Notes under the pieces: generated by a model
What the model saw: the letters and a program-made list of their open reading frames with translations, nothing else
Databases searched by the model: none
What the model was told of the DNA's origin: nothing
Shown: in pieces, positions 15,965-31,654 of the stretch
How the letters are laid out: each line of letters opens with the position of its first letter
Position numbering within the stretch: the first letter of the stretch is position 1
Source: an uncultured Verrucomicrobiota bacterium
Lineage (GTDB): Bacteria; Verrucomicrobiota; Kiritimatiellia; RFP12; UBA3636
Length of the DNA stretch: 35,686 nt
Assembly (NCBI GenBank): GCA_949295265.1
Contig: CASFKR010000011.1
Location: forward strand, 1-35,686
Reading direction: 5' to 3'
Program-made: the position numbers and the translations under genes

Positions 15965-18418
15965 TCAGTCCTTCTTATCGGCGTCCTGCCCGGCTTTGCC
16001 GGCGGCCTGTTCGGCTTCGCGCTGTTCGAAGACGGCGACGTCCGCCAGGGAGACATCGCCCTCGACCATGCCGTTGTCCAGCTCATTGCTGGTGCGGTTG
16101 GAAAGATCGCGGAACAGGTGGAACAGGTCGCGGATGCCGCCCCACATGAACCACACCGTGGTGATGACACCGGCAATCGACGGCACCACGAGCGACATCA
16201 CGAGGAAGTAGTTCGCCCAGCCGGCGTCGGAAATCGGGGAGAAGTGATTCCAGATGCAGATGCCCACGAAGGCCAGAAGGAACTGCCAGATGACGGAGTA
16301 GGCAAACACCGACCAGGCAATGATCTTGTCGCCCGTCGTGTAATCCGGCGTGATGGAGACGAAGTAGTTCAGGAGGTTCTTCCACGAGAACTTGTTCTTC
16401 ACTTCCTGCTTGAGCGGGTTGACGTTGTAGATGCCGCGGTGCAGGAGGCGGTCCAGGTTGTAGGGTTCGCGGCAGGTGAGCAGCGAGACGACCCAGTAGC
16501 CGATGATGCCGGAAATCGTGGCGATGAAGGTGATTTCCATCGCGTTGACCGGGAATTTGACGGCATCCATCTTCCAGACAATCCACGGCGAGCAGACGGC
16601 GGTGACCCCGTCGAAAATTTTGGAGACGAACGGGATGGCGCCCCAGCGCTCGAGCGCCGGGTAGATGGTGTCCGCCCAGTTGCGCTGGATGATCAGACCG
16701 GCCGCCGAGATGCCGCCGCCGAGGAAGACGGAGGCGTAGGCGCCGGCCGTGGTGCCGCGGCGGGAGTAGAGACCGAAGATGACGACGGCCGCGCCGCCGG
16801 CGCTCCAGATGGAGACCGCGACGGTCAGGAACAGGTTGATGAAGTCCAGCTGCGCCAGGAAGATCGAGGCGAAGAAGAAGACGATGCCCACGAACAGCGT
16901 GGAGAGGCGGATCATCAGGAGGTGCGTCTTCGGGGACGGCGGCGTCTTGCAGAAGGGCAGGATGAGGTCCTGCACAATCGTGAAGCCGGAGTTGAAGATG
17001 CGAGAGTCGTCCGTGGAGACCATCAGCAGGATCATGAGCAGCGAGAAGATGGCCAGCAGCACGGGCGGGAAGAAAGACTTCATGACCATCGGGAGCATCA
17101 TCTGGTTGAAGAGGCTCCGGTACTCCTGATACGCCTGGCGGCCTTCCTCGGGAGAAGCGCTGTGGTCGAGGATGGAGCTCAGCACCGTCGTATAGTACGG
17201 GGTGTCGATGTTGTTCTCGCGGCAGAGCAGGGCGGTGCGGTGCTGTTCACCGGCTTCGTTGACCGTGAGCACGGAGCTCATGGCGGCCATCTGTTCCTCG
17301 AGCGGGAGCGTGGTGGATGCGGCCGGCGGCATGGTGGCGCCTTCCACGATATCGTAGTAGACGGGCTTGAGCTTCGCCTGGATGTCGCCGATGACGGCGT
17401 CGCGGACTTCGGGCTGTTCGTAGAGAACTTCGTCAACGACCTTGGTGGCGAGTTCCTGGCGGATGTTGTTGGCCAGCGGGGCGTAGTTCTTGTGGTTCAT
17501 CACCACGATGACGGTGATGACGAGCAGGATGCACATCGTCCAGGAGAAGCCGGCGCGCCAGGTGGCGAGAATGCCGGACATCTTCTGTTCGTGCGGGGTG
17601 CGGCCGGCCGTGGAGGAGTCGTTGCCGATCCAGACGTAGTTGTTGAAGAAGCGCTGGAGGAGCGTCACGACGAGCGCGAACATGTTGAAGTCGCGCAGGT
17701 TCTGGATGTCGTAGGGGTTGAGGAAGCTTTCACCGGGCGCGCGCTGCGCCATGATGGGGGCGATTTCTTCGAACCAGGAGAATTCCGTCAGCACGAAGAC
17801 GGAGAGAATCACGAAAATCGGGTAGGAGATGAGCCCCTGGAGGGAGTCCGCCACGATGAGCGAGATGCGGCCGCCGGGCAGCACGATGCAGAGCGCCAGC
17901 GTGATGCAGATGAACAGGAAGAGCGGGAAGGTCGGCACCATCGTCCCGAAGATGGAAATGTGGTGCGGAACGCCGAGCAGATACAGGAAGAAGCGGGCGG
18001 CGACGGCCGGGCCGATGCAGTTGGTGAGCATTTCCGCGAAGACGCGGATGGACGTGGCAAAGATACGGAACGAGCGCGAATAGCGCATTTCCAGGAACTG
18101 ACCGCCCGACATGGCGCGCGTTTCACGGAAGCGGTAGTTCACATACCCCGTAATGCCCAGGAAGACGGAGACCGGCAGGAGCAGGTGGTTCCAGAAACTC
18201 ATGGCAAAGCCGGTCTGGTAGTTGGCTTCGCACATGCCGACCAGCGTAATCACGCCCAGCGCGTCCATGACGCTGGAAACGCAGATGATGTAGCGTCCGG
18301 CTACGCGCCCGGCAGCGATGTAATCGGAGAGGTCCCGCACATATCGGTTTGAGTAAAATGCCAATCTCAAAACGAAAAAGATCGGGACGATAATGATCAG
18401 CCAATGGTACCAGCTCAT
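15965..18418 (-). CDS. Large sodium:solute symporter family (SSS) transporter
   Basis: An 817-residue multi-spanning inner-membrane protein of the SSS family, which couples Na+ entry to solute uptake. It begins with a hydrophobic helix (3-22) followed by the family feature SDYIAAGR (31-38). It contains about fourteen hydrophobic segments. Two features exceed the usual 450-550 residue size: a hydrophilic insert of about 130 residues after the helix ending near 300 (rich in Glu, Gln, Asp), and a long C-terminal extension with further helices and a charged tail ending KKD. Large SSS proteins like this are common in PVC bacteria beside glycoside hydrolase genes (family knowledge). It follows the two GH50 genes on the same strand after 179 bases, so sugar or oligosaccharide uptake is the natural guess; the substrate is not determined. 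A good terminator follows. Confidence 0.93.
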   Translation of the reverse strand: MSWYHWLIIIVPIFFVLRLAFYSNRYVRDLSDYIAAGRVAGRYIICVSSVMDALGVITLVGMCEANYQTGFAMSFWNHLLLPVSVFLGITGYVNYRFRETRAMSGGQFLEMRYSRSFRIFATSIRVFAEMLTNCIGPAVAARFFLYLLGVPHHISIFGTMVPTFPLFLFICITLALCIVLPGGRISLIVADSLQGLISYPIFVILSVFVLTEFSWFEEIAPIMAQRAPGESFLNPYDIQNLRDFNMFALVVTLLQRFFNNYVWIGNDSSTAGRTPHEQKMSGILATWRAGFSWTMCILLVITVIVVMNHKNYAPLANNIRQELATKVVDEVLYEQPEVRDAVIGDIQAKLKPVYYDIVEGATMPPAASTTLPLEEQMAAMSSVLTVNEAGEQHRTALLCRENNIDTPYYTTVLSSILDHSASPEEGRQAYQEYRSLFNQMMLPMVMKSFFPPVLLAIFSLLMILLMVSTDDSRIFNSGFTIVQDLILPFCKTPPSPKTHLLMIRLSTLFVGIVFFFASIFLAQLDFINLFLTVAVSIWSAGGAAVVIFGLYSRRGTTAGAYASVFLGGGISAAGLIIQRNWADTIYPALERWGAIPFVSKIFDGVTAVCSPWIVWKMDAVKFPVNAMEITFIATISGIIGYWVVSLLTCREPYNLDRLLHRGIYNVNPLKQEVKNKFSWKNLLNYFVSITPDYTTGDKIIAWSVFAYSVIWQFLLAFVGICIWNHFSPISDAGWANYFLVMSLVVPSIAGVITTVWFMWGGIRDLFHLFRDLSNRTSNELDNGMVEGDVSLADVAVFEQREAEQAAGKAGQDADKKD

Positions 18419-18597: not shown

Positions 18598-20862
18598 TCA
18601 GGGCGCAGGGTTTGCCGCTGCGGGGGCGTCGGCGCCGTCCATGCGGTTGGCGAGGACGCCGCGCGCACGGTACTCGTACATGTGCTCGCCGACTTCGCGC
18701 CCGGCGGCGCAGAGCTCGGGGTAGGGGCGGTCATTGCCGTCCACCCAGCCGATCTGGTAGGCCTCGCCGTCGCCGCGGCCGACGAGCGGCTGGTCGCGGT
18801 ACTGGAACCAGTGCGTGCCGATGACCATCGGGTGGCACAGGGCGCCCTGGACGAAGCGCGTGTACGCACGGGCGCGCTCCGTCTGATCCGGAACGGGGCA
18901 GAGCGAGGCGCGGAACATGCCGCGGTCAAACGTGCCGAAGTGGAATTCGCCGATGATGAGCGGACGCTCCGGGCGGTTTTCCGTCCAGATGTCGGGCAGG
19001 TTGAAGAGGGCGTTGCAGTAGGTGTTGACGGAGAGCACGTCGCAGTACTTGGCGGCGGCATCCCAGATCTGCCCCTTCTGGCGGAAGCCGACGAGGCGGC
19101 TGCCCAGATAGAGCCGGTTCGGCGCAACGGCGCGGAGCGCGTCGCGGACCGTCTTGTAGTAGATGTCGAAGAAAGCGGCTTCGAAGGCGGAGGCATCCTC
19201 GCGGAAGCCCTTGCCCTTGGGGGCGGCGGTGAGCTTCTTGAGGTCTTCCCACTGCTGAATGTCGAGTTCCCAGGCCGCATTGAGGGCTTCGACGGTCTTG
19301 TACTTCTTGAAGGCGCGGCTGAAGAACTCGCGCTTGGAGCCGCAGGACTCGAAATCGGCGGCGAACATCTTGCCGATGACGGCGTTGACGCCCAGCTCGT
19401 TGTCGACGAAATAGCCGATGCACATCGGGTCGGTCACCGACTTGGCCAGGTGCGCCTCTTTGGCGAAGGCCTCCTTGACGGCGGCGAAGAACTTCTCGCG
19501 GAAATCGGGTGCGAAGCAATCGTAGAAGACGCGGTCCGGCAGCATCGGGACGGAGCGGTTGCGCTCGAAGACGCATGCCGTGTAAGGCTTGGCGCTCATC
19601 GCCATGATTTCGCGGGCGCCCCAGTTGCCGATGGTGTTGATGCCCCAGGAATCGAGTCGCTGGATGACGAAGGCGTAGTAATCGTCGAGGTAATCCTCTT
19701 TACCGAACTTCTTTTTCAGCGCCCGGACCGTGAAGGGCATCATGCCGTCGGCGGGAATCTCGGAGGCGTACCAGTTGGGGTGGAGCGCGCCGTTGGGGGT
19801 ATCGGTGTTGTTGCGCACCACGTCGATGCCGGTGGAGAAGAAGAGATGCCCGTCCGGCGTGACGAAGTACCACTTGCCGTCGACCTTCTGAACGCGGAAA
19901 GAGCCGGTGGCCTCGAGCTGCGGACCGTTGGCCCAGCCGCCGAAGCGGTCCCAGCTGGCGGGCGCGGGCTTCAGTTCGGCGCGCTCGCGCGCCAGATCGG
20001 CGACCAGTTCATCGTAGGAAGCGACCTTTTCCGGCCAGTCGGCGTGGATGTTCTGACCGAAGGCGTCGATGAACGGGAAGAAATTGTCTTTGGGGACGAT
20101 GCGGGTCGCGTCCGGCTCACCTTCGAGGCGGAAATTGGAGATGCGCGCATCCACGACCCACTGGAACTGCTCCTCGTAGGGCCACTGCACCTTGAGCTCG
20201 ATCTGGGAGACGCGTTTGGTGTCGATGACGTAGATGGACGGCGTACCGCGACGACGCGCCTTGGGGTCGCGCGGCGGCTGCGGGTCCTCGGGCGAGAGAT
20301 ACAGATCGGCGTGCGGCAGGAAGATGCGCATCGTCGCTTTTTCGCCGGGGTTGAGGCCGATACCGGTGTTGATGGCGCGGTTTTTGGCGAGGATGGCGGA
20401 GGCGTGGTCGCCGGAATCGGAGTTTTTGCCGCCGGAGGAAAGGTGCATCGTCAGCCGCATCTGGCGGTCGGGCGAGAGATTCTCGACGTCAACGGCGAGC
20501 CAGCGGGCGCCGGAGAGATCGATGCCGTCTTCACCGGCTTTGGGTTCGATGCGCATGCCGCAGTCCCACTCCGCATTGGGGAGGCGCAGGCGGTACGAGC
20601 CGTCCGCCTCGAACTCGAGTTTGGCGTCATGCACGGCTTTCACCTGATTGCGGGAGAAGGCGAGCGGGCGGACTTTCGCCACAGGCGCGGGCGCCTCGGG
20701 CTCCGGCGCGGGCTCGACCTCGGGCGTCGGCTCCGCCGGTTCCTCCGGTGCGGGCGGTTGCGGCGAGGGCGGGGTGACCGGCTCAAAGTAGCCGGCTTGC
20801 TTGAGGCGGCAGGCGGCGAAAACCACCAGAATGACAACCAGGAGGAGATAAAAGCGTTTCAT
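18598..20862 (-). CDS. GH50 (beta-agarase family) glycoside hydrolase, lipoprotein
   Basis: A 754-residue GH50-like enzyme. GH50 members cleave beta-1,4 bonds of agarose and related galactans, mostly exo-acting. Residues 1-18 are a lipoprotein signal with lipobox VFAAC (Cys18), then a Pro/Glu linker (to about 62) and a beta-sandwich domain (about 65-250). The catalytic domain starts at FIDAFGQNIHADWP. It includes WDRFGGWANGPQLEATGSF, GYFVDNELG with Glu489 as the acid/base, LIIGEFHFG with Glu639 as the nucleophile, and HWFQYRDQPLVGRGDGE. Both catalytic Glu residues are intact. The open frame runs upstream, but the lipoprotein start at ATG 20862 is convincing; no Shine-Dalgarno is seen. It lies 61 bases after its paralogue and upstream of the symporter. 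Agar specificity is not proven; other galactans are possible. Confidence 0.93.
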   Translation of the reverse strand: MKRFYLLLVVILVVFAACRLKQAGYFEPVTPPSPQPPAPEEPAEPTPEVEPAPEPEAPAPVAKVRPLAFSRNQVKAVHDAKLEFEADGSYRLRLPNAEWDCGMRIEPKAGEDGIDLSGARWLAVDVENLSPDRQMRLTMHLSSGGKNSDSGDHASAILAKNRAINTGIGLNPGEKATMRIFLPHADLYLSPEDPQPPRDPKARRRGTPSIYVIDTKRVSQIELKVQWPYEEQFQWVVDARISNFRLEGEPDATRIVPKDNFFPFIDAFGQNIHADWPEKVASYDELVADLARERAELKPAPASWDRFGGWANGPQLEATGSFRVQKVDGKWYFVTPDGHLFFSTGIDVVRNNTDTPNGALHPNWYASEIPADGMMPFTVRALKKKFGKEDYLDDYYAFVIQRLDSWGINTIGNWGAREIMAMSAKPYTACVFERNRSVPMLPDRVFYDCFAPDFREKFFAAVKEAFAKEAHLAKSVTDPMCIGYFVDNELGVNAVIGKMFAADFESCGSKREFFSRAFKKYKTVEALNAAWELDIQQWEDLKKLTAAPKGKGFREDASAFEAAFFDIYYKTVRDALRAVAPNRLYLGSRLVGFRQKGQIWDAAAKYCDVLSVNTYCNALFNLPDIWTENRPERPLIIGEFHFGTFDRGMFRASLCPVPDQTERARAYTRFVQGALCHPMVIGTHWFQYRDQPLVGRGDGEAYQIGWVDGNDRPYPELCAAGREVGEHMYEYRARGVLANRMDGADAPAAANPAP

Positions 20863-20923: not shown

Positions 20924-22927
20924 TCAGGACCGGCGGCGGAAGGCGACAACACGCGTGTGGGGCGTATCGACCGGATAGAGTTCCTCGCCGATGGTGCGGG
21001 AGGCCTGAATCATTTCCGGATACGGGCGGTCGCACCCGTCGACGAAGCCGATTTCGTAGGCTTCGCCGTCACCGCGGCCGACGAGCGGCTGGTCGCGGTA
21101 CTGGAAGTAGTGGCACCCGACGACCTGCGGGTTGCGCATGGCGCCCTGCACGAAGCGGCGCAACGTGCGCGCGCGCTCCGCCTGATCAGGGCAGGGCGTG
21201 GGACCGCCGCTGCCCATGCCGCGGTCCACACAGCCGAAGTTGAAGGCACCCACCAGAATCGGCTTGTCGATGATGCGCCCGTGATCGCCGCGGGGGACGA
21301 ACTGCGCCGTCCCGTACGCATGGATGTTGATGGACAGCACGTCGGCGTAGACGGCGGCCGTTTCCCAGACGTCCGGCGGTTGCCGGAAGCCCTTGAACGC
21401 ACAGGCGAAAAAGAGCTTGTGCGGAGAGAGCGTCTTGACCGCCTGGCGGCACACGCGGAAGTAGCGGTCCAGCCACTTGCGCCGGAAGAGCACCGCATCT
21501 GCGGCATAGCCGGGACCCGGGACGGGGCGACGGATTTCCGAGAATTCCTCCCAGGTGGAGAAATCGGTGCCCCACGCCTGGTTGAGCGCGGAGAGCGTCA
21601 GGTGGCGCAGGCGCACGTCGCGCAGAAACTCGGCTTTGGTCGGGCAGGTGCGGAACGGCTGCGCAAGGAGCCGGTCGACAATGCCCGCGAAGTCCTTCTC
21701 GTTGTCCACGCAGTAGCCGAGGCACATGGGATCCTCGAGCGAGTGGGCAACGGATTCTTCGCGCTTCTGCGTCTGAATGGCTTCCACCATGCGGGAGGCG
21801 AATTCCGGGTGGAAGCAGTCGTAAAAGTCCGTACCCTTGACCATCGGGACCTTGGGGGCCGTGTCGTAGAGCAGGACGAGATACGGTTTGCGCCCGTAGA
21901 GCGTGAGCTTGTGCGCGCCCCAGCGGCCGATGGTGTTGACGCCCCAAGCGTCCATGCGGCGCAGGATGAAGTCGTAGTAGGAAGCGACGTAATCCGTTTC
22001 GCCGAATTTCTTCTGGAGGTTCCAGTGTGTGAAACTCATCCACCCGTTTTTGGGGACGGGCGTTTCGAACCAGTCGGGATGCTGATGCCCGTTGGCACGG
22101 TCGGTGCAGTGGCGCAGCGTATCAATCCCGTAGGAGAAGAAGAGATTTCCGGAGGGATCGATAAACCACCAGCGGCCGTCGATTTTCTCGGTGCGGAAGT
22201 GCCCCGTGGCCTCGCGGCGGGGTCCGGTCGCCCAGCCGCCGAAGGCGTCCCAGTTGCGCGGTGCGGGGCGCAGTTCGGGGAGCTCTTTCTCGAGGTCCGC
22301 GATCAGGTCTTCGTCGGACCGGATTTTTTCCGGCCAGTCGAGGTGGGCGTTCTGACCGTAGGCGTCGATGAACGGCGTCTGCCACGGGGGCAGGGGAACC
22401 GGGGGCTCATCGGCGGGGACGGGCAGCACCTGAAAGTCGCTCAGCAGAAAATCGGCCGCGAGCTCTTCGCGGTGCGCATCGGTCGCCTGAATGCGGAAGC
22501 ACAGGCACGTCAGGCGCAGCGTGCTGCGGCGGTGCGGCTCTTCGGGACGGGCGGAAGGGCGTTCGCCCTGGCCGGGCATGACCCCGGCCGGGAGCCGGAG
22601 GCGCAGCGTGCCGCGCTCGCCGGGATCCAGCACGATGCCCGTGCGGGCCAGTTCCGGAGAACCGCTTTCTTCCGGCGCCGTCGCAGCCTCGAAGAGGAGC
22701 GTCTCCTGATGCCGGTAGAGGTTCTCCACCTGCACGGAAATCACGCACGGAGACGGCAGAACAAGCTCCGTCGTTCCCGTTTCGCCGTCGATGAAACGTG
22801 TCTCGGAAAAGGGCCCAATGCTGCGCGCCGTGAGGCGGTAGGCATCCGGACGCTTTTCGAGCGTCGTGTTTTCAGGGGTGGCGACTTCGAGAATCGGCAG
22901 AGAAGACTGCGCGTCTGGTTCGGTCAT
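20924..22927 (-). CDS. GH50-like paralogue lacking the nucleophile glutamate
   Basis: A 667-residue protein with the same architecture as its downstream neighbour: a beta-sandwich (about 25-170) and a GH50 barrel from FIDAYGQNAHLDWPEK. The acid/base site is kept (CVDNEK, Glu410). At the nucleophile site the neighbour reads GEFHFG and this protein reads GAFNFG, with Ala561 encoded by GCC. The later HYFQYRDQPLVGRGDGE is conserved. It has no signal peptide and should stay in the cytoplasm. By GH-A chemistry, losing the nucleophile should abolish normal retaining hydrolysis, so a binding, scaffolding or regulatory role is possible (inference). The rest of the protein is well conserved with no frameshift, which argues against a decaying gene. 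A promoter lies at 22981-23008, and it is the first gene of the GH50-GH50-symporter series. Confidence 0.92.
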   Translation of the reverse strand: MTEPDAQSSLPILEVATPENTTLEKRPDAYRLTARSIGPFSETRFIDGETGTTELVLPSPCVISVQVENLYRHQETLLFEAATAPEESGSPELARTGIVLDPGERGTLRLRLPAGVMPGQGERPSARPEEPHRRSTLRLTCLCFRIQATDAHREELAADFLLSDFQVLPVPADEPPVPLPPWQTPFIDAYGQNAHLDWPEKIRSDEDLIADLEKELPELRPAPRNWDAFGGWATGPRREATGHFRTEKIDGRWWFIDPSGNLFFSYGIDTLRHCTDRANGHQHPDWFETPVPKNGWMSFTHWNLQKKFGETDYVASYYDFILRRMDAWGVNTIGRWGAHKLTLYGRKPYLVLLYDTAPKVPMVKGTDFYDCFHPEFASRMVEAIQTQKREESVAHSLEDPMCLGYCVDNEKDFAGIVDRLLAQPFRTCPTKAEFLRDVRLRHLTLSALNQAWGTDFSTWEEFSEIRRPVPGPGYAADAVLFRRKWLDRYFRVCRQAVKTLSPHKLFFACAFKGFRQPPDVWETAAVYADVLSINIHAYGTAQFVPRGDHGRIIDKPILVGAFNFGCVDRGMGSGGPTPCPDQAERARTLRRFVQGAMRNPQVVGCHYFQYRDQPLVGRGDGEAYEIGFVDGCDRPYPEMIQASRTIGEELYPVDTPHTRVVAFRRRS

Positions 22928-23112: not shown

Positions 23113-26100
23113 TTAGTGGACAAGCAGCGTCGTCGGGCGCGGCGGGATGTACGCGACCTCCGTATGGTGGAAGGAAGTCACGACCATGTGTTCGGCGGCC
23201 TGCGAGGTGCCGGCAAAGCCGACGATGACGGGGCCGGTCCAGTCCTCGATGTTGATGGTGCGCACATTCTCACCATTCACATACGCGCGGAGCCAGCGGC
23301 CTTCGCGGACGATTTCGAGGTCGACCATTTCCGGGGACGGCCAGGAGATTTCCGTCCGTTCGGTGGCGCCACCCTCTTCGGTGCGGGCGCCGACGTAGAC
23401 GGTGGACTGATCCCAGCGCAGACGCATCAGCGAAAGGTTCGCGGCGGCCGCATTGGTGGAAGCGGCCACGTAGAGACCGTTTCGGGCATTAGGCTGATAA
23501 CCGTTGCACCCGGAGACGGTGGCGCGGATGACGAAGTCGGCACCGGCGTCCATCTCCCGGTAGAGGAGGTGGCCGTTGTTCGAGGTGCCGCCGATGCCGT
23601 TGCCGCCGCCGCAGCTGGCGAGCGTCACGAGGAGTTTCTCCGGATCGTAGCGGCGTTCCGCGGGCGTGCGGTGCATCTGGACGATGCCGCGCATGCCGGT
23701 GCCCCACTGCAGATCCTTCCAGTCGCCGAACACGATGGACTCGGAGCCGTCCGGGTAGGCGGGCGTGGAAGCGGCCATGGCGGAGGAGAGCGCCGTCACG
23801 GGGATGTCCGTGAAGCCGCCGGTGCCGGAGCCGTTCTCCCAGAGAATCTGGAGCACGCCGTAGCTGGTGTCGTTGCTGCCCGTGCGGTAGAGCGAGGTGA
23901 TGGGGAGGGGGGCGCCCGCCTTCAGATACAGCCAGTCGGTCGTCTGGATGTACGAGAGGTTCTCATTGGTGGAGACGTTGCGGGTCATGTTCCCCTGGAG
24001 CGCGACACCGTTGAGGCAGAGCGTGGCGTAATCGTCGGCCGCGACGCGGAACCGGTAGTAGCCGGAGTACGGCGGCGTGAGGAAGCCGGAGTACAGGCCG
24101 AAGAAGTTCTGGCGGTCGATGGACGTTCCGTTTACGGAGAGGTTGCCGTCGGCTGCAGCCCAGTTCGGGTAGGCGGCATTGCCGACGCGGATAACGGAGG
24201 AGGCAATGGGGCCATCCTGCCAGCTTCCGGAGTAAATCTGGTTGAGACCGTTTCCGGACTCGGTCGGCGCCTGCTGCGCAACGCCGAGCTGGAGCGAGGT
24301 CGGCAGGGCCTCGTAGGAGGTCTCGCCGAAGGCGCCGGAGAGCGGCGTGAGCGTGAAGAAGGTAAGTTCGCGCGGATCGTCCGTCGTGAACGTGTACGGG
24401 ATGGCGGTTCCGGTGGCGGCGCCGCTGACGACGAGGTCGGTCGGAGCGTTGGTCGGAATGCCGGTGTGGGCGTACACGTCGAACGTGTCGTCGTAGCGGC
24501 TGAGCATGTCGCTGAGCCAGAAGTAGCCGTTGATGCGCGAGCCGTAGAGCTCGGCGGCGCGGTTGGCGTCATCGATTTCGCCGGAGGCTTCCGTGAAGGT
24601 TACGGTGACGGAGCCGTCTTCAGCCGTCTCGGCAACGGCGGAGATGGAGATGTCGCTGTAATCGAGGAAGGAGATGCGGTCGATGGCCGTCGTGGAGAGC
24701 GAGTTGTAGTCGCCGGAAGCGGCGCCGAAGGCGACCGGAACGGCGCCGAGCAGTGCATCGGAAAGTTCGATGGCTTCGCCGACGGGAATCCACGTGTCGA
24801 GGGTGCGCGAGGTGCCGTCCAGCACGTAGCAGTTGACGGTGGAGCCGACGCGGCGGATGCGCAGGTAGGCGGAGGAGGCGAAGGTGCCTTCCGGGAGCGC
24901 CTGCGTGTGGAGCGTCTCGGTGGCGCTGTCCGAACCGGCGCGGGAAATGATGCGCACGGTGCGGCCGGAGAGCAGGAGGCCGAACTTGGCGGAGGTCTCA
25001 TCGCGCGGCGTGTCGCGCAGGACGATGCCCGCTTCGGTGTCGCCGCCCGTTGCCGGGATGACGCGCGCCAGCACGTCGAAATCGCCCGCCGGGGAGTCGC
25101 GCCAGATGATCTGACCTTCGTCGTAGTCGCCCGCAAAGCCGCGGCCGGCCGCCTGGAAGGTGAACGCCTGCGTTTCGTGGTTGTACGAGACGGTGCCGTT
25201 GCGGCCCGCACGCCCGAGGTCGTAGGAAGCCCAGGGGTGGGGGAGCGGCTCGCACTTGTAGTTGGGGTTGTTGACCCACTTGTCGCTCGTGTCGCCGTTG
25301 AAATCGCAGTAGTTGGCAATCAGCGAGTAGGCGCAGCCGCCGTCGTTCTGGACGAGCGTCCACTCGAGGAAGTAGTTGCGGCCCGCTTCCATCCAAATCG
25401 GGCAGGAATAGGTGTAGCCCGAGCCCCAGCCCTTCGTGCGGACGACCGTGACGCCGTCGATGCGGACCGTGCCGTAGTCGTCGGCTTCAAGTCGGAAACG
25501 CCAGAAGCCGGTTTCCGGCACGCGGAAGTTGGACTGGCTTTCGATGGTGAAGTGGGTCGTGTTGGTGATGCCGGTGCCGATCGAGCCGGCGACGTTCGGG
25601 TAGATGCTGGCGTTGTTGTCGCCGTTGGTCCAGGGCTGCCAGGTGTTGGACTGATAGCAGGTGGAGCCCACCAGCACGCCGTTCTGATAGTACTCGTTCG
25701 CCATGCCGGTCAGCGAGGCGGTCAGCGTATTGGTCGTGTCGATGGCGATACGGGCGGGCATCGAGGCGCCGACCGCATAATCGGCGGCCGTTGCGGCGCC
25801 TTCCGCATCCGTGGTGTGGTAGTGGCTGACCACGTCGTAGACGTAGCGGTAGCCCGCTTCCACGTTCGAATCCACGAAGGTGTTCACGTTGCCGGCCGTG
25901 GTGGCGACAAGCGTGCGCCCGCTGAAGCCGACCTGCGTGCGGTACACCGTGTTGGAATCAATGACGGCATCGGCGGGGATGGGGTGGTCCGTGCCCCAGG
26001 AGACGGTCATCGAGGACGCACCGGGGTCCACCTGGACGAGCTGGCGCGCATCGATGTCAACCGCCGTAAAGGAAAGGGTGTTGGTGCTCTGGGGGCAGGC

Positions 26101-26742
26101 GGCAATGCCGGCGAGCAGACCCAGCTGCCCGAAGGATGCACCCATGTCGCGCTGGCCGAAGAGCGTCCAGTTCTTCTCGCCGACCGGGCTCCAGTATGCG
26201 TAGACCACGGTGCCTTTGCGCATGAGGCGCATGCGCACGGACTCATCGGCGGGCCATTCATCCTCGACGGTCCGCAGGTCCGACGTGTTCGCATCGTCAC
26301 TCAGGCGGGCAATCAGACGTGCGCGGTTCGTGCCGTTCGTGGTGCTGGAGGTCGTTTCGCGGCACAGTAAAATGTGCGCCGACGAACTGAGCGTGTAATT
26401 GCGGAACATGACGCCGGCCTTCGCATAGTTGCCGATATTCGCGTTGTCGGACGTCTTGTAGAGCGGCGGAATGGTCGCGATGACTTCACAGTCTCCAGCC
26501 GCCGGTGCGCTGTAAAGCGAACCGCTGTCGCTGTTGCCCCAAATATCCGTGCCAAACGAAGTAATGGCTACGGATTGCGTGCCGCTGAAGCTGTTGGTCG
26601 ACAGAATGCAGACGGGTTGGTTGTCGGTTTGATTGGAATTGATTGCAAAGCTCCTGCCGAACCAGTAGTCGGCGCTGTGAGCCGTCAGTGTCAGTGCGGA
26701 GACAATGAGTGTGCAACCGATTCCCTGAAACGAACACTTCAT
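23113..26742 (-). CDS. Large secreted protein with PA14-like and concanavalin-like domains
   Basis: A 1209-residue exported protein. The signal peptide is residues 1-24 (ending TAHSA). It is built from repeated beta-sandwich units. There are three DUF1349/LamG-like domains (about 25-240, 530-710, 1020-1205), marked by AGVMFRN, AGIVLRDTP and RNGLYVAAS. A fibronectin-like unit follows the first (about 245-330). There are two PA14-like domains (about 360-500, 840-1000), with FWRFRLEADDYGTVRIDG and YYRFRVAADDYATLCLNG. PA14 domains bind carbohydrate. No catalytic domain or C-terminal anchor is recognisable, so glycan binding or adhesion is likely. Start choice: the first ATG (26751) has no room for a ribosome-binding site, but ATG 26742 has GAGAA 9 nt upstream. 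It has its own promoter (26827-26856), divergent from putP, and precedes the GH50 series. Confidence 0.9.
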   Translation of the reverse strand: MKCSFQGIGCTLIVSALTLTAHSADYWFGRSFAINSNQTDNQPVCILSTNSFSGTQSVAITSFGTDIWGNSDSGSLYSAPAAGDCEVIATIPPLYKTSDNANIGNYAKAGVMFRNYTLSSSAHILLCRETTSSTTNGTNRARLIARLSDDANTSDLRTVEDEWPADESVRMRLMRKGTVVYAYWSPVGEKNWTLFGQRDMGASFGQLGLLAGIAACPQSTNTLSFTAVDIDARQLVQVDPGASSMTVSWGTDHPIPADAVIDSNTVYRTQVGFSGRTLVATTAGNVNTFVDSNVEAGYRYVYDVVSHYHTTDAEGAATAADYAVGASMPARIAIDTTNTLTASLTGMANEYYQNGVLVGSTCYQSNTWQPWTNGDNNASIYPNVAGSIGTGITNTTHFTIESQSNFRVPETGFWRFRLEADDYGTVRIDGVTVVRTKGWGSGYTYSCPIWMEAGRNYFLEWTLVQNDGGCAYSLIANYCDFNGDTSDKWVNNPNYKCEPLPHPWASYDLGRAGRNGTVSYNHETQAFTFQAAGRGFAGDYDEGQIIWRDSPAGDFDVLARVIPATGGDTEAGIVLRDTPRDETSAKFGLLLSGRTVRIISRAGSDSATETLHTQALPEGTFASSAYLRIRRVGSTVNCYVLDGTSRTLDTWIPVGEAIELSDALLGAVPVAFGAASGDYNSLSTTAIDRISFLDYSDISISAVAETAEDGSVTVTFTEASGEIDDANRAAELYGSRINGYFWLSDMLSRYDDTFDVYAHTGIPTNAPTDLVVSGAATGTAIPYTFTTDDPRELTFFTLTPLSGAFGETSYEALPTSLQLGVAQQAPTESGNGLNQIYSGSWQDGPIASSVIRVGNAAYPNWAAADGNLSVNGTSIDRQNFFGLYSGFLTPPYSGYYRFRVAADDYATLCLNGVALQGNMTRNVSTNENLSYIQTTDWLYLKAGAPLPITSLYRTGSNDTSYGVLQILWENGSGTGGFTDIPVTALSSAMAASTPAYPDGSESIVFGDWKDLQWGTGMRGIVQMHRTPAERRYDPEKLLVTLASCGGGNGIGGTSNNGHLLYREMDAGADFVIRATVSGCNGYQPNARNGLYVAASTNAAAANLSLMRLRWDQSTVYVGARTEEGGATERTEISWPSPEMVDLEIVREGRWLRAYVNGENVRTINIEDWTGPVIVGFAGTSQAAEHMVVTSFHHTEVAYIPPRPTTLLVH

Positions 26743-29683: not shown

Positions 29684-31654
29684 TCAGGCGTTCGTGGTGC
29701 CGTGGGAGAGGCGCGACCACGACAGCAGCGGGGCGTCCGTCTTCTTCCAGAGCGCCAGCGCATCGTCCAATTCCGGGATGGTGTCGATGCGCCCGGCGCC
29801 GTAATCCGCCGTGCGGCGCATGCATTCGCGCGCGCGTTCGATAGCGCCCGCCAGCCGGATCTGGATGGTTTCGTAGCCCTGCGGGCGGTTCCGGCTCATC
29901 CACATCATGCGGTGTTCGGCGGCGAAGGCTTCCATCGCCGTGAGGTAGGTGCGCATTTTGAGCGCGAGGGCGCGGACCGCGCCGCGGCGCTGCTTCGGCG
30001 GGTTGTCCCACGCCGAAATGAGCGCGTTGCACAGCTCGATTTTCGCGAGCAGCACATCGAGGAGCGCACGTGCATACGGGATGGAGCCGCCCATCCCTTC
30101 GGGCGTTTCCGGCGTGCGCGAGAGAATGTGCGAGATGTAGCGCAGCCGGTGCGGGAGCGCCGCCCAGTCGCACACAAAGCCCGCGCTGTCCGCAGGCGCC
30201 GTCTCCGCCTGCAGCGAACTGGCGCCGATCATCATCAGCGGATCGTCCCAGAGAATGGCGGACCAGAAAGGCGCCGCTTCTTTGGCGACCATGCGCACGA
30301 CTTCGTAGGAGTCATCGCCGTGGATGGCGGCATGCTGGTCGGGCGGGGAGGGGAGAACGTGATTCTTCGGGTCGCGGTACGCCTGGTTGGCGCACGAAAT
30401 GAGCCCGATGAACGCGCTTTCAAAGTCGCAGTAGGCGCCGTCGGTTCCCCAGAGGGTGAAAAAGACGTCCTTCACCTCGCATTTGCGCATGGCGTAGAGC
30501 GCGGCATGCAGCGTGGGCGCCGTTTTGCTTTCGGAATACCAGAAGAGGTTGGCAGTCGAAATGCCGGAGACCACGACCGGCTCCTGATAAATGCTGCGGT
30601 AGCGCTTGATCGGGGTGATGAATTTGTAGGCGCTTTCGCTGTCGTAATCGGCATGGCTGAAGCGCATGTTGTCCGGAATCTGCAACTTCAGTTCGTCCGG
30701 GAAGACGGCTTTGACGTCGAAGTATTCGTGTTTTTTGGAGGCCGCGCGCCACCAGGCTTCGCCCCACATGACAGGTTTAAGCTCCAGGGTTTCGCACAGC
30801 TCCGCAATGCGGTTCGCGTGGCGGGCGACCAGGTCGATGACCGGCGGCTGCGGGGCGTTCGGATGGAGAAGGCGGTAGCGGCCCGAACCGAGCCAGCGCG
30901 ATTCATCCATGCCGACGTGGATGACGCGCGAGCGCACATTGTCGCGCCAGAACCGGAGCATTTTTTCGATGAGGTCGTAGGCGCGTTTGCTGTCGACGAG
31001 CAGGTTGCCCGCAATGTCGTGGATCGGCAGATACGCGCGCCAGCGGAAGAGCTGCTCCAGGTGCGTGAGGGTCTGGATGGAGGGCACCAGCTCGAGCCCG
31101 AGCGCATCGGCGTAATCGTCCAGTTCGCGGATTTCCTCCGCCGAGTAGGCGCCGCGGTGGAATCCGAAAAAGGGTTCGTCTTCCAGTTTGAACGTGTCTT
31201 CGCAGTAGAGCAGCACCCGGTTGAAGCCGAGGAGCGCAAGCCGTTCAAAGGTGCGGTGGAGCGATTCGGGCTTCGGCACCGCATTGTGCGAGCAGTCGAT
31301 GAGCACGCCGAACGTCTCGAACGGACAGGTTTCCGTGCCCGGAATCCCTTCCGCCAGGCGCTTTGCCGAGCGGGCGAATGTTTTCCGGAGTTCCTTCTCC
31401 GGCAGGGTGCGCGAGAGCCGGTACAGTTCCGCCATCAGGAGTCCCAGCGTGCGCAGCGCCCGGCACGGTCGGTCGAACGAAATCGTCAGCCCGCCGTCTT
31501 GCGCGGGCGAGACGAGTTTCGCGACTTTGCCCGGTTTGCACCGCCGGAAATGGATCGGGATGCCGGTGTCCACCCCGTGCAGGACGGGGTAGCGTTCGGT
31601 GAGAATCCGGAGCGCGGGGCGGAGTTCCTGAACGGGGAAAACACGGAATTTCAT
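29684..31654 (-). CDS. GH20 beta-N-acetylhexosaminidase, GcnA-like
   Basis: A 656-residue protein similar to the GcnA branch of GH20, exo-enzymes releasing GlcNAc or GalNAc from glycans by substrate-assisted catalysis. A small N-terminal domain (1-105) precedes the barrel, which opens with FGVLIDCSHNAVPKPES (115-131). Strands FNRVLLYCED (144-153) and LELVPSIQTLTHLEQL (187-202) are typical. The catalytic pair is Asp250-Glu251 in HVGMDES, followed by LGSGRY (255-260) as in GcnA proteins. VMWGEAWW and LFWYSES supply further substrate contacts. A helical C-terminal domain completes it. No signal peptide, so it probably trims imported amino-sugar oligosaccharides or recycled cell wall. It follows yicC by 78 bases on the same strand and ends beside repeat region E. 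Confidence 0.92.
   Translation of the reverse strand: MKFRVFPVQELRPALRILTERYPVLHGVDTGIPIHFRRCKPGKVAKLVSPAQDGGLTISFDRPCRALRTLGLLMAELYRLSRTLPEKELRKTFARSAKRLAEGIPGTETCPFETFGVLIDCSHNAVPKPESLHRTFERLALLGFNRVLLYCEDTFKLEDEPFFGFHRGAYSAEEIRELDDYADALGLELVPSIQTLTHLEQLFRWRAYLPIHDIAGNLLVDSKRAYDLIEKMLRFWRDNVRSRVIHVGMDESRWLGSGRYRLLHPNAPQPPVIDLVARHANRIAELCETLELKPVMWGEAWWRAASKKHEYFDVKAVFPDELKLQIPDNMRFSHADYDSESAYKFITPIKRYRSIYQEPVVVSGISTANLFWYSESKTAPTLHAALYAMRKCEVKDVFFTLWGTDGAYCDFESAFIGLISCANQAYRDPKNHVLPSPPDQHAAIHGDDSYEVVRMVAKEAAPFWSAILWDDPLMMIGASSLQAETAPADSAGFVCDWAALPHRLRYISHILSRTPETPEGMGGSIPYARALLDVLLAKIELCNALISAWDNPPKQRRGAVRALALKMRTYLTAMEAFAAEHRMMWMSRNRPQGYETIQIRLAGAIERARECMRRTADYGAGRIDTIPELDDALALWKKTDAPLLSWSRLSHGTTNA

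Follow-up and report, generated by a model that had tools for sequence, protein, structure and literature searches.

The window, by which we mean the whole analysed stretch of 35,686 nucleotides, encodes a GH50-type protein, P0001, that lacks the catalytic nucleophile of its family. The genes run in the order PA14 protein, nucleophile-less protein, GH50 and SSF symporter, and a second SSF gene lies upstream on the opposite strand (Table 1). The downstream symporter is unusually long (817 aa), and the family profile matches it in two stretches. A further glycosidase near the locus (29684-31654, minus strand) is GH20-like and has a GH20C C-terminal domain, and the genome carries three GH130-family genes. 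A preliminary description of this DNA had placed P0001 first in its operon, which holds within the GH50 pair only, because the PA14 protein gene precedes it on the same strand and a PKD-domain gene likewise lies upstream in relatives. A Pfam scan of the neighbours revealed no regulator; a distant partner is possible. The region was also scanned for promoter- and terminator-like sites, with results near chance.

Table 1. Features of the P0001 locus. Fractions refer to the nine distinct proteins of the nucleophile-less clade.
Feature	Position	Strand	Remarks
Large PA14/GLEYA-domain protein	23113..26742	-	Pfam; signal-like N-terminus; upstream of P0001
Nucleophile-less GH50 protein P0001	20924..22927	-	Intact ORF, 667 codons (667 aa); no signal peptide
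N-terminal CBM-like beta domain of P0001	22418..22927	-	About residues 1-170
Arg335	21923..21925	-	Almost always Asn in active GH50s (Aga50D Asn460); Arg in 9/9
Glu410, acid/base	21698..21700	-	Kept (Aga50D Glu534); 9/9
Ala510	21398..21400	-	Invariant Arg in active GH50s (Aga50D Arg646); clade alignment
His536	21320..21322	-	Tyr in active GH50s (Aga50D Tyr672); His in 8/9, Arg in 1/9
Ala561 (codon GCC), nucleophile column	21245..21247	-	Aga50D Glu695; Ala in 8/9, Thr in 1/9
Asn563	21239..21241	-	His in active GH50s (Aga50D His697); Thr/Asn/Ser in clade
Sugar-binding segment His606-Glu622 (HYFQYRDQPLVGRGDGE)	21062..21112	-	Retained; includes Phe608, Arg618, Glu622
Adjacent GH50	18598..20862	-	Both catalytic Glu (Glu489, Glu639); N-terminal membrane/lipoprotein signal
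SSF-family sodium:solute symporter	15965..18418	-	Pfam; downstream

Sequence and predicted structure confirm that P0001 is of the GH50 type. A phmmer search of the PDB returned AgWH50C (5z6p) at an E-value of about 1e-74 and Aga50D (4bq2) at about 1e-73, and the AlphaFold2 model (pLDDT 86, pTM 0.89) has GH50 agarases as its best PDB matches. In Pfam, hmmscan gave just a weak GH42 match under the cut-off and did not place the protein in GH112. A search of the genome for GH112 was uninformative, as it gave no match there and none in the control genomes.

The phmmer alignment sets GAFNFG of P0001 opposite GEFHIG of Aga50D and GEFHFG of AgWH50C. The loss of the nucleophile, which the preliminary description had read from the GEFHFG of the neighbouring gene (Glu639, codon at 18946-18948), is thereby confirmed against two characterised enzymes, with Ala561 in the column of Aga50D Glu695; residue numbers and roles for Aga50D were taken from PMC11079163. 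VDNEKDF lies opposite IDNEKSF, whose Glu has been changed to Gln in the mutant chain 4bq4, an independent mark of the acid/base residue. The two Glu columns are 161 residues apart in Aga50D, as expected for Glu534 and Glu695. The acid/base residue and the substrate-binding segment had been described as retained, and both are: Glu410, Phe608, Arg618 and Glu622, the last three corresponding to Aga50D Phe742, Arg752 and Glu757, are present in all nine clade proteins. Asp408 and Asn409, which flank the acid/base residue, vary in a few members, Asn409 (Aga50D Asn533) being Ser in two of nine.

Another acidic residue in the role of nucleophile would have undone the original reading. None was found: no invariant acidic residue has been gained in the alignment of the nine clade proteins, so no substitute nucleophile is evident. 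Position 534 is Asp in seven of them and Asn in both P0001 and L024, the latter with Arg536, and we rejected this explanation. By its sequence, P0001 is a GH50 protein by descent in which the defining mechanistic feature of the family, the nucleophile, is missing. With the nucleophile replaced and no acidic substitute found, retaining hydrolysis is unlikely.

Relatives were sought in the source genome, 19 genomes of its family, 162 of its order, 346 of its class and 388 drawn from the phylum. Close nucleophile-less relatives occur in 10 genomes from two families of one order and comprise 9 distinct proteins, which read GAFNFG, GAFSFG, GAFTFG or GTFTFG at the nucleophile site. The search across the 346 genomes of the class found no further members, and just a weak fragment matched among viral contigs. 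A tree of 73 proteins, for which the nucleophile columns were masked, joins the nine sequences in a single group with 100/100 support. The GH50s that form its sister group have both Glu residues, and some of them come from the same loci. The view that the nucleophile-less GH50s are a clade of single origin, maintained by selection, is well supported by these comparisons. No description of such a group was found in the literature searched, of which coverage was partial. The Ala/Asn pair of the preliminary description recurs in part among the relatives, since Ala is present in eight of nine (Thr in the other) and adjacency to a GH50 is conserved, but position 563 varies among Thr, Asn and Ser. 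The CBM-like N-terminal domain is kept in P0001 and missing from the other members. In agarases the substrate tunnel is roofed by this domain (PMC8551122), and a small substrate is thus plausible.

One further GH50, L072 (G480:C189:6461-8134), carries Val at the nucleophile position (IAVFHFG) and keeps all other active-site residues. It is an isolated case of Glu to Val, perhaps an assembly error: its codons look locally scrambled relative to those of its close relative L073, which is normal.

The clade is under purifying selection similar to that on the adjacent active GH50s, with pairwise dN/dS values of 0.07-0.18 and 0.05-0.39, respectively; the earlier description of the gene as conserved and intact stands. 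Among 59 active GH50s, 56 positions are near-universal (at least 97% identical). The clade keeps 46 of these in at least eight of its nine members, and seven (406, 508, 510, 534, 536, 561 and 563) are replaced in at least seven. Position 335, Arg in all nine, is a further replacement. These substitutions fall within, or immediately after, strands 332-337, 402-407, 505-507, 530-534 and 557-562 predicted in the AlphaFold2 model, mostly as i,i+2 pairs near the barrel-strand ends, a spacing that suggests side chains pointing into the barrel. In Aga50D numbering, the putative inner-face changes are Asn460Arg, Arg646Ala, Tyr672His/Arg and His697Thr/Asn/Ser. On the alignment, loss of the nucleophile is coordinated with the replacement of several neighbouring residues, which suggests that the GH50 protein has been repurposed for a new intracellular role and that the gene is not dead. 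This remodelling around an invariant proton donor would be explained by a changed reaction no less well than by pure binding.

In relatives, the usual gene order is a large PKD-domain protein, a GH50 with SEFHFG, the nucleophile-less protein and a GH50 with GEFHFG. The SEFHFG gene, a second GH50 type counted in five of the loci, lies directly upstream of the nucleophile-less gene at L089, L090, L091, L092, L093 and L094 and is missing from the window. A gene for an FAD-oxidoreductase-like protein follows the pair, co-directionally in G011 and G014 and convergently in G043. The nucleophile-less gene and the following GH50 share a 4 bp overlap in G008, G017 and G014; the G016 contig ends within the neighbouring GH50, whose nucleophile is therefore unreadable. 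G018 has an active copy that is not directly preceded by a nucleophile-less gene, which shows that the two genes need not occur together. With tblastn, G008, G014 and G017 gave 17-31 GH50 matches, and the family is thus much expanded in gut/rumen-type Verrucomicrobiota.

P0001 and its clade are predicted to be cytoplasmic, as the preliminary description had proposed for P0001. Hydropathy shows no hydrophobic N-terminal segment in nine clade members, and none is visible by eye in the tenth (G001). The adjacent GEFHFG GH50s mostly start with one, for example MKALFFVIAFIAAAIFAVHRL. The active copy in the window had been called a lipoprotein, and it does have a possible lipobox (FAAC). Most orthologues lack the Cys and look membrane-anchored, among them those at L089, L090, L094 and L095, which unlike the window copy have an N-terminal anchor without a lipobox Cys. 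The lipoprotein assignment is consequently uncertain even for the window copy.

We tentatively favour the reading that P0001 is an intracellular inverting enzyme that uses an external nucleophile, most likely phosphate. A glycan would be cleaved outside the cytoplasm by the exported GH50 neighbours, its short products would be taken up by the sodium symporters, and P0001 would bind these in the cytoplasm. The cavity left by the nucleophile, together with Arg335, His536 and the small polar residue at 563, would accommodate an anion, inorganic phosphate being the likeliest. With phosphate attacking the anomeric carbon and Glu410 giving its proton to the leaving group, an inverting phosphorolysis would take place and yield a sugar 1-phosphate. 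In the nearest variant the reaction is still inverting, but water is the external nucleophile. On the fuller form of the proposal, which we hold as doubtful though worth stating, a lineage of retaining GH50s may have become a cytoplasmic inverting phosphorylase by exchanging its nucleophile and the residues around it for an anion-binding site, and would represent a new type of phosphorylase in clan GH-A that shares an operon with its hydrolase relatives.

A proton donor and phosphate-binding residues suffice for an inverting phosphorylase (PMC8950772), and in the clade alignment the proton donor is present and the nucleophile/base carboxylate absent. The phosphate site of GH112 is close to where the related GH42 beta-galactosidases have their nucleophile (PMC8106489). 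Phosphorylases and hydrolases of GH130 differ in having basic residues or carboxylates, respectively, and in being cytoplasmic or secreted (PMC4599007). Positions 335 (Arg) and 536 (His or Arg) are basic in all nine members and would be candidate phosphate contacts at the vacated site. Against phosphorolysis, just two basic gains lie clearly near strand ends, Asp408 and Asn409 beside the acid/base residue vary as described above, and no dedicated sugar-phosphate enzyme was identified in the operon.

A close rival, nearly as likely as the phosphorylase, is a non-catalytic pseudoenzyme that binds imported oligosaccharides in its barrel without cleaving them and acts as an intracellular sensor, buffer or regulator. 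The nucleophile is gone from every member while the sugar-binding residues are kept, there is no signal peptide, and the gene is under selection. Against it stand the invariant proton donor and the fixation of particular new residues, including basic ones, around the former nucleophile, and Pfam recognised no regulator among the scanned neighbours; the specific sensor or binding role put forward in the preliminary description is not supported. A new base, for instance Asp534 or His536, could instead activate water to take the place of the nucleophile, which would make P0001 an inverting hydrolase. The proton donor is available for this, and Asp534 and His536 occur in seven and eight of nine members; the candidate base is not universal, however, since P0001 has Asn534 and L024 has both Asn534 and Arg536, and we consider this reading improbable.

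Slightly less probable again is that P0001 assists the neighbouring GH50 as a non-catalytic partner or chaperone subunit. The idea draws on the homo-oligomeric state of some GH50s, structures of which include dimers and a tetramer (PMC11079163), and on the tight adjacency of the two genes with its 4 bp overlaps. The neighbours carry export or membrane-anchor signals, though, and P0001 carries none, a difference in location that disfavours the pairing, as does the lone active copy in G018. Decay into a pseudogene, or an assembly or sequencing artefact, is effectively refuted. The Glu to Val change in the otherwise normal L072 indicates that sporadic losses or errors occur, but the nucleophile-less ORFs are intact in ten genomes, form a single clade, have low dN/dS and share coordinated replacements. 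Moreover, converting a Glu codon (GAG/GAA) to GCC takes two base changes and the loss is common to relatives, so it is not a sequencing error. Overall, the earlier interpretation is partly supported; the clade and its co-replaced residues are new to the present analysis.

Similarity would label the genes of this clade as GH50 agarases, yet here is a conserved clade that, as its sequences indicate, cannot use the GH50 retaining mechanism. Should P0001 be a phosphorylase, a hydrolase would have been converted to a phosphorylase inside one (beta/alpha)8 family. With unconverted relatives adjacent and few defining substitutions, that change would be testable by mutation. Should it be a binder, it would offer a bacterial pseudoglycosidase in a tractable operon.

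Compared with known systems, P0001 shares with Aga50D (4bq2) and AgWH50C (5z6p) the fold, the acid/base Glu and the equivalents of Phe742, Arg752 and Glu757. It differs from them in lacking the nucleophile Glu695, in having other residues at Asn460, Arg646, Tyr672 and His697, and in having no signal peptide; most clade members also lack the CBM-like domain. GH112 resembles P0001 in its (beta/alpha)8 barrel, its proton donor without a nucleophile carboxylate and its cytoplasmic location (PMC8106489), but P0001 has no detectable sequence membership in that family and its phosphate binding and phosphorolysis are putative. The GH130 mannoside phosphorylases and hydrolases show the split noted above between basic residue and carboxylate and between cytoplasmic and secreted proteins (PMC4599007), although they are five-bladed beta-propellers and use three phosphate-binding basic residues, against at most two evident in P0001. 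Heparanase 2 and the beetle GH28 pseudoenzymes are likewise conserved, catalytically impaired copies within glycosidase families (PMC12406646, PMC6549527); these, however, are eukaryotic and belong to other families.
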